Assembly (NCBI GenBank): GCA_021812985.1
Contig: JAKAMG010000001.1
Location: 186,001 to 250,000 of the forward strand
From: Bacteroidota bacterium
Lineage (GTDB): Bacteria > Bacteroidota > Ignavibacteria > Kryptoniales > JAKASW01
Direction: 5' to 3'
Length of the DNA stretch: 64,000 bases
Part shown: piece by piece, positions 37,546-39,402 of the stretch
Layout of the letters: each line of letters begins with the position of its first letter
How positions within the stretch are numbered: the first letter of the stretch is position 1
Made by a program: the position numbers and the translations under genes
Notes under the pieces: generated by a model
Told to the model about the DNA's origin: nothing
Database searches by the model: none
Seen by the model: only the letters and a program-made list of their open reading frames with translations

Positions 37546-38751
37546 ATGTCTTTTCCTGACAGTATAGACGCGGCCATCGAGGATTTCCGCGCCGGCAAAA
37601 TAGTTATAGTGGTTGACGATGAAGAGCGCGAAAACGAAGGCGACTTCATACTGGCCGCGGAAAAAGTCACCCCGGAGTCGATAAATTTCCTGACGAAGTA
37701 TGGACGAGGGATCATATGCTCCGCCCTCCTTCCGGAACGAGCCGCCGAGCTCCAGCTCGATCTGATGGTGGATGAGAACACCTCTCTTCACCAGACAGCG
37801 TTTACCGTTAGTGTGGACGCGCTGAAGGGGACAACCACCGGCGTCTCGGCGGCCGACCGTGCGGCCACAGTTCTTGCCCTTGTGAATCCGGCGACGATGC
37901 CATCAGACCTTGGCAGGCCAGGGCACATCTTCCCGCTCAGAGGAGTCGAGGAAGGGGTACTGCGACGTGCGGGCCACACCGAGGCAGCCATCGACCTCGC
38001 CAGGCTTGCCGGACTTTATCCTGCCGGCGTCCTTTGCGAGATAATGAACGACGACGGCACGATGGCGAGGGTGCCGCAGCTGACCGAGATGGCCGCAGAG
38101 TTCGGCCTCCGCGTCGTTACGATCAAAGACCTCATCCACTACAGGATGCTTCGTGAGAAAATGGTGCAGAAGGTTGTTGCGACGAAACTCCCGACCGCAT
38201 ACGGAGATTTTGACCTGCATCTTTATCACAGCGTGCTGGAGAGGAAGGAGCATATCGCCCTGGTCAAAGGCGAGATCCGCGGAGATGCCGCGATGCTGGT
38301 GCGCGTTCATTCCGAGTGCCTTACCGGAGATGTCTTCGGCTCGGCGAGGTGTGATTGCGGCGAACAGCTTCATCGTGCGCTGAAGATGGTTGAGAAGGAG
38401 GGAGCCGGCGTAGTGCTCTACATGCGTCAGGAAGGGAGAGGAATCGGGCTGGTCAACAAGCTGAAGGCTTACAAGCTTCAGGACGAAGGGCACGATACTG
38501 TCGAGGCCAATGAGAAGCTCGGATTCAAGGCCGACCTCCGCGACTATGGGATAGGTGCCCAGATACTGGTCGACCTCGGCGTCAGGAAGATGCGTCTCAT
38601 GACGAATAATCCGAAGAAGATCATAGGGCTCGAGGGGTACGGCCTCGAAGTTGTCGAGCGCGTGCCGATCGAGATTGAACCGAACGAGATAAACCACAGG
38701 TATCTCGAAACCAAGCGAGACAAGCTCGGTCACTTCATACTGAATCAGTGA
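37546..38751 (+). CDS. ribBA: Bifunctional 3,4-DHBP synthase/GTP cyclohydrolase II RibBA
   Basis: RibBA supplies both riboflavin precursors. Residues 1-205 (RibB) form 3,4-dihydroxy-2-butanone 4-phosphate from ribulose 5-phosphate, with [16 protein letters not shown] and [20 protein letters not shown]. Residues 206-401 (RibA) open GTP; the zinc cysteines are in [15 protein letters not shown], and [13 protein letters not shown] forms the catalytic loop. Both halves look complete. It lies 3 bp after yajC and is probably the last gene of the amidohydrolase-tgt-yajC-ribBA run. No FMN riboswitch is visible upstream. Confidence 0.97.
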
Positions 38752-38783
38752 CACGAGAAGGTTGATATTTTCGGCTTTCGCGG

Positions 38784-38811
38784 TTGGAAATAATCAGCCG
38801 TATTTTATTAT
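38784..38811 (+). promoter_or_regulatory. Predicted sigma70 promoter upstream of the greA leader
   Basis: TTGGAA and TATTAT are 16 bp apart. The predicted start near 38818 gives greA a leader of about 108 nt that contains a small hairpin (TTCCC/GGGAA) and then a complete intrinsic terminator. Confidence 0.55.
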
Positions 38812-38857
38812 CTTTCACTAAATTAGTTCTGTTCCCTTTGAAGGGGAAAGAGTTTAT

Positions 38858-38898
38858 GCCTTCGCGGTAACGTGTACGCGAAGGCTTTTGCTTTTTTT
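38858..38898 (+). terminator. Intrinsic terminator inside the greA leader
   Basis: A perfect 9-bp GC-rich stem (GCCTTCGCG/CGCGAAGGC, 38858-38866 with 38877-38885) is followed by TTTTGCTTTTTTT. It ends 27 bp before the greA ATG and precedes the GGGAGG ribosome-binding site. It can end ribBA transcripts, but it also lies downstream of the promoter at 38784, so it may attenuate greA. Confidence 0.85.
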
Positions 38899-38925
38899 AG
38901 ACAAGAAATTACCTGGGAGGTTTCA

Positions 38926-39402
38926 ATGTCAAATAACTTTGTCTATTTGACAAGAGAAAAACTGATGGAGATGGAAGCGCAGCTGAAGGACATGAAAACC
39001 AACGGCAGGCAGGAGGCGGCGCGCAAGATTGCGGAGGCGCGCTCGCACGGGGACTTGTCCGAAAACTCAGAGTACGACGCTGCCAAGGAAGAGATGCAAA
39101 TGCTGGAGCTCAGGATCGCGCAGCTTGAGCAGACCCTTACTAAGACGCGAGTCATCGACCCGACAGAAGTCAGGACCGACAAGGTGTACATCTTCAGCAA
39201 AGTGCAGCTTCTGGACATGCTTTCAAATAAACAGATCGAATATCAGCTCGTTTCCACTGAAGAGGCTGATCTCTTGAAGGGAAAGATTTCCACCGACTCG
39301 CCGATCGGGAAGAGCCTGCTAGGAAAAGAAGTCGGCGACGTTGTCAGCGTCAAAGTCCCGGCGGGTATAAAACAGTACAAGATACTCCAAATCGGCAGGT
39401 AG
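38926..39402 (+). CDS. greA: Transcription elongation factor GreA
   Basis: GreA enters the RNA polymerase secondary channel and stimulates cleavage of backtracked RNA. The 158-residue protein has the N-terminal coiled coil with acidic tip GDLSENSEY (Asp43, Glu46) and the C-terminal FKBP-like domain ending IKQYKILQIGR. The ATG at 38926 lies 5 nt behind GGGAGG; the longer open frame from 38872 would begin inside the terminator hairpin and is rejected. It is preceded by its own promoter and leader terminator, an arrangement that recalls GraL of E. coli. Confidence 0.97.
   Translation: MSNNFVYLTREKLMEMEAQLKDMKTNGRQEAARKIAEARSHGDLSENSEYDAAKEEMQMLELRIAQLEQTLTKTRVIDPTEVRTDKVYIFSKVQLLDMLSNKQIEYQLVSTEEADLLKGKISTDSPIGKSLLGKEVGDVVSVKVPAGIKQYKILQIGR

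Follow-up and report, generated by a model that had tools for sequence, protein, structure and literature searches.

The stretch of DNA analysed here (the window, 64,000 nucleotides from a Bacteroidota bacterium) carries the genes ribBA and greA on the same strand, separated by a gap of 174 bp, with a CYTH-domain gene after greA. A GC-rich hairpin followed by a run of T residues lies within this gap, and the locus thus raises the question whether this element serves to end transcription of the upstream gene, or whether it is part of a greA leader at which termination and readthrough would determine how much greA mRNA is made. The features on which the answer depends are as follows.

37546–38751, + strand: ribBA, the gene upstream of greA and on the same strand (Pfam PF00926 and PF00925)
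38784–38789, + strand: −33/−35 element TTGGAA, from the sequence and a promoter-scan match; TGGAAATA is retained in several leaders of the same genus
38809–38816, + strand: putative −7 box TATCTTTC, following the Bacteroidota consensus TAnnTTTG and overlapping TATTAT by three bases
38817–38823, + strand: predicted transcription start region, placed by the position of the −7 box
38832–38848, + strand: first hairpin TTCCCTTTGAAGGGGAA (arms TTCCC/GGGGAA; fold −6.4 kcal/mol), from alignment with relatives and compensatory changes in them
38856–38870, + strand: weak candidate for a translated mini-ORF, ATG CCT TCG CGG TAA (MPSR), which enters the 5′ arm of the terminator
38858–38885, + strand: terminator hairpin, 9 bp with a loop of 10 nt, from the sequence (fold −16.3 kcal/mol)
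38886–38898, + strand: T-tract TTTTGCTTTTTTT, from the sequence; the short RNA is expected to end here
38915–38920, + strand: ribosome-binding site GGGAGG, from the sequence; its GGAGG core is invariant across the genus
38926–39402, + strand: greA, 158 aa (Pfam PF03449 and PF01272)
38927–38952, + strand: inverted repeat TGTCAAATA-N8-TATTTGACA spanning the greA start codon, from genus comparison

The greA leader of the window

The GreA protein encoded in the window aligns with that of E. coli at 39% identity and keeps the catalytic acids, the acidic pair D43 and E46 corresponding to E. coli D41/E44. At the protein level, the nearest named relatives are MAGs labelled Bacteroidetes (92%) and Ignavibacteria (61%), and the genome is thus probably that of an Ignavibacteria-related member of Bacteroidota and kin. 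The perfect 9-bp GC-rich hairpin and T-tract described in an earlier note on this DNA could be read directly, with the coordinates correct (arms GCCTTCGCG at 38858–38866 and CGCGAAGGC at 38877–38885, loop at 38867–38876); the hairpin is absent from the listing of a stock terminator scan because its loop measures 10 nt. The greA ATG was confirmed to begin 27 bp past the end of the T-tract behind a good ribosome-binding site, and this gap is too short to hold a further promoter. In the window, no TAnnTTTG box matching at least 5/6 is found between hairpin and greA; some sister species have matches there.

Folding of the 111-nt leader of the window returned a z of −2.2. For the leader of the window, Rfam yielded no match of note, and its matches in nine relatives never fall on the leader hairpin. 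Since the window-type hairpin pattern is present as one copy per genome in 6 of the 13 members of the genus, and always at greA, the possibility that it represents a dispersed repeat was rejected.

Concerning the promoter, TTGGAA (38784–38789), a spacer of 16 nt and TATTAT (38806–38811) are present in the window as the earlier note had proposed, but matches to E. coli-type promoters are at chance level (2 found against 2.1 expected from shuffles of this single sequence), and an E. coli-type sigma-70 promoter was rejected as a description because the −7 box of the lineage, TATCTTTG/A/C (TAnnTTTG), located 3 bp downstream of the TATTAT −10, provides the better fit. TAnnTTTG is the Bacteroidota promoter consensus, as cited in PMC7366714, and TATCTTTC, a −7 box of the Bacteroidota type, therefore describes this promoter better than TATTAT does. 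The proposed distance of 70 bp between promoter and hairpin approximately holds when counted from the −35 element (74 bp) but not from the −10 (46 bp), while the proposed start near 38818 matches the start predicted here at about 38820 ± 3. Because 5/6 matches to the −7 box also occur in 34% of shuffles, the case for the box rests on the clustering of its distances and on 6/6 matches, and not on the count alone: the spacing from box to hairpin is 3–9 nt in many leaders of the same class and 18–37 nt in Bacteroidales, and a conserved −7 box in greA orientation appears to precede the hairpin across genus and class.

Taken as a single sequence, the leader features of the window barely exceed chance. 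Promoter and hairpin become convincing because the relatives conserve block TTTATTATCTTT, which is the best conserved of all leader sequence preceding the hairpin in the genus alignment, and because they carry the hairpin and T-tract far above controls.

Leader hairpins among relatives and their neighbours

A hairpin is situated directly before greA in 13/13 genomes of the genus. Beyond the genus, leaders and controls were scored alike using one strict finder which requires a hairpin of −10 kcal/mol or lower, then at least five T in eight, within 180 nt; what is scored as a terminator depends in part on these thresholds. Of the 85 distinct leaders from the same class (62 genera), 70 (53 genera) have a hairpin and T-tract before greA by this finder. 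The controls score far less often, with 31 of 322 other genes from 464 kb of same-class sequence, taken in 20-kb stretches, and 4 of 27 recA leaders. The respective Fisher p values of 6e-39 and 3e-10 are descriptive, as related genomes are treated as independent. In the rest of the phylum outside the class, 32 of 40 genomes score, and some of the eight others miss only through the cut-offs (e.g. L229 and L250). Judged by this comparison with relatives, the hairpin and T-tract are found at greA much more than by chance, and the promoter-then-terminator leader is a feature that appears to be retained through Bacteroidota and kin. The stem is followed at once by a run of 6–9 T in most class members; in several sister species the tract is interrupted (TTTTGTATTTG, TTCTGTATTTTT), and termination may therefore be weak there.

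The stems themselves are specific to families (GCCATTT/AAATGGC, GTCCGTCCC/GGGACGGAC, GCCACTGC/GCAGTGGC, CATAGCCAG/CTGGCTATG, ACAAAGCCG/CGGCTTTGT and others), those of different families being wholly unrelated in sequence with the pairing preserved. In contrast to this turnover elsewhere, the leader hairpins of Bacteroidales greA share a conserved GGRTTCYGAC..GTCGGRATTC type (L031, L033, L044, L049, L061, L067, L070, L074, L076, L077, L087, L091 and L092). Compensatory stem change, which the earlier note had offered as a check, was assessed on the ancestral leader hairpin of the genus across 12 aligned leaders, with a positive outcome: both-sided changes affect 6 of 14 pairs, and 88.5% of cells are paired against 37–52% with the partner slid. 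By alignment, the first hairpin of the window is a remnant of this ancestral hairpin, apparently decayed to its inner part. The window and five relatives (L003, L004, L005, L009 and L010) form a tandem-hairpin subgroup in which a second hairpin, GCCTTCGC/GCGAAGGC, sits as an insertion between the ancestral hairpin and the T-tract; covariation is uninformative on this second stem because there is hardly any variation in it among the six carriers.

The hairpin is associated with greA rather than with the gene upstream of it. In several relatives (L019, L049, L050, L061, L076, L080 and L092) the upstream neighbour is divergent while the hairpin is still found in greA orientation, and there it cannot be the terminator of the upstream gene because that gene points away. 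Only cases with recognisable long ORFs were used, among them ORFs read from the sequence as ComM/YifB-like (L019), radical-SAM-like (L049), serine-dehydratase-like (L061) and Fur-like (L080), and spurious frames (e.g. in L005 and L046) were not counted. The hairpin of L019 was recognised by eye, the finder having missed it because two bases separate stem from T-tract. A FopS-family sRNA (RF04319) was also observed in a Prevotella-like genome, on the minus strand divergent upstream of greA (L091:2667–2733). In one family of the same order (f2; L097, L098, L102, L105 and L120), greA lies 8–24 nt behind another gene and is without a leader hairpin, as if promoter and attenuator had been lost together. 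The divergent neighbours, the absence in this family and the spacing of the −7 box therefore indicate that the element goes with the greA promoter. From these sequence comparisons we infer that the hairpin belongs to greA and not to the upstream gene; for the window itself, in which ribBA is co-directional with greA, this assignment rests on the relatives and on the −7 box. A ribBA terminator overlapping the greA promoter (38780–38801) was also considered and was rejected, being absent from sister leaders.

Probable attenuation and alternative functions of the leader

Based on these findings, the greA leader is probably a promoter-proximal attenuator at which termination is partial, a short RNA is released and greA is expressed by readthrough, with GreA itself as the likeliest regulator. 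RNA polymerase would start near 38820 and transcribe about 75–80 nt, at which point most complexes would stop at the hairpin and T-tract and release the short RNA, the remaining complexes reading through to yield greA mRNA, such that the level of termination would set GreA output. That termination occurs, and that it is partial, is suggested by the sequence, and the terminated RNA is most likely to measure some 40–80 nt, its predicted median being about 41 nt in the class and 61 nt in the other set. Readthrough of a leader terminator into greA, as put forward in the earlier note, is supported by the position of the hairpin, by its conservation despite stem turnover and by the relatives with a divergent upstream gene. 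If GreA were the regulator, more GreA would result in more termination and hence in negative feedback; control of leader termination by GreA, which the retained acidic pair makes plausible, is proposed tentatively by analogy with E. coli, as a possibility rather than an expectation.

The same hairpin could be the plain terminator of an upstream ribBA operon, with greA transcribed by leak-through or from another promoter, as ribBA is co-directional, ends at 38751 and is followed by no other strong terminator before greA, and as the hairpin lies close behind the upstream stop codon in L118, L121, L123 and L152. This is rendered quite unlikely by the persistence of the hairpin next to divergent neighbours, by the −7 box immediately upstream of it and by the 27-bp gap behind it, which in the window is free of the box and too small for a promoter; the hairpin of the greA leader may also stop ribBA transcripts. 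Stem-loops near the start of a transcript can protect mRNA from its 5′ end, and the observations that the hairpin often begins near the predicted start in the same class, and that T-tracts are interrupted in several sister species, would suit a stabiliser of the 5′ end of greA mRNA rather than a terminator. A stabiliser would not need the T run that stands directly behind the stem in most class members, and this function is deemed unlikely.

It is also conceivable that the short RNA works chiefly as a small RNA acting in trans, with greA expression coming second, given that in E. coli nudE is an additional, trans target of GraL (PMC6829880). The leader sequence turns over between families while hairpin and T-tract stay, which fits a role in cis, and no Rfam sRNA match was obtained at the window leader; a predominantly trans-acting RNA is accordingly very unlikely. 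A short leader ORF that crosses the second hairpin and reads MPSPQ-LRAKAFAF in relatives but MPSR in the window might render the terminator responsive to translation, the frame being open in 5/6 tandem-hairpin leaders, longer (13–15 codons) in the five relatives of this subgroup and altered in L010 by a 6-nt deletion that is in frame. This proposal, which we consider very unlikely, draws on five tandem-hairpin sequences only, in which the reading largely follows from the conserved stem; the frame is truncated in the window, starts with TTG in one relative and has no clear ribosome-binding site.

A further element, the inverted repeat over the greA start codon (ATG TCA AAT AAC TTT GTC TAT TTG ACA; fold −7.5 kcal/mol), is perfect in 11 of the 13 genus genomes, and the two exceptions (TCG) retain a G-U pair. 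Codons 3, 7, 8 and 9 of greA are identical in 13/13 genomes, versus 0/114 other conserved degenerate codons, and no comparable synonymous constraint is seen over the ten initial codons of either ribBA or the CYTH gene; a start-codon repeat of this kind occurs in 8 of 352 other genes. The codon constraint could be due in part to a preference for A/T-rich codons early in genes, which would not readily account for the pairing, and the repeat is a possible translational control element that would be specific to the genus.

Relation to known greA attenuators

About one third of E. coli transcripts pass the terminator in the greA leader, greA expression is increased about 3.5-fold in the absence of GreA, and in vivo GreA increases the amount of GraL and reduces that of greA, for which catalytically active GreA is required; this dependence on GreA was seen in vivo only, as a purified system did not reproduce it (PMC6829880). 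The likeness to the GraL leader to which the earlier note had drawn attention holds, since the finder applied to the relatives also picks out the terminator of E. coli and the predicted short RNAs are of similar size (37–59 nt for GraL, about 75–80 nt predicted for the window). Both leaders consist of a promoter, a short leader and an intrinsic terminator, then greA, and the two GreA proteins carry the same catalytic acids. The leader of the window differs in its TAnnTTTG promoter type, in having no sequence similarity to that of E. coli, in the distance from terminator to start codon (27 nt as opposed to about 100 nt in E. coli) and in the tandem hairpins of its subgroup.

Earlier work has reported greA-leader attenuators from Proteobacteria, Bacilli and Clostridia (Naville and Gautheret 2010, PMC2965389), Bacteroidetes being absent from the text of that paper, and they share with the window a premature terminator before greA. 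They are reported to have alternative antiterminator structures, whereas no shared alternative pairing was recognised by eye in single-sequence folds of the 13 leaders of the window's genus. Whole-word literature searches of partial coverage found no report of greA-leader attenuation in Bacteroidota, and the Bacteroidota leaders are a new phylum-wide set within the already known class of greA-leader attenuators. That a GreA-sensing terminator constitutes an ancient or repeatedly evolved feedback device throughout the phylum, with additional control by the start-codon hairpin in the genus, is a reading by analogy and a rather doubtful one.

With these leaders, the range of greA-leader attenuation grows beyond Proteobacteria and Firmicutes to include Bacteroidota and kin. 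The maintenance of structure amid complete sequence turnover suggests that selection acts on the strength of the terminator itself, and feedback by GreA becomes testable in genetically tractable Bacteroidota, in purified systems and across many natural leader variants.
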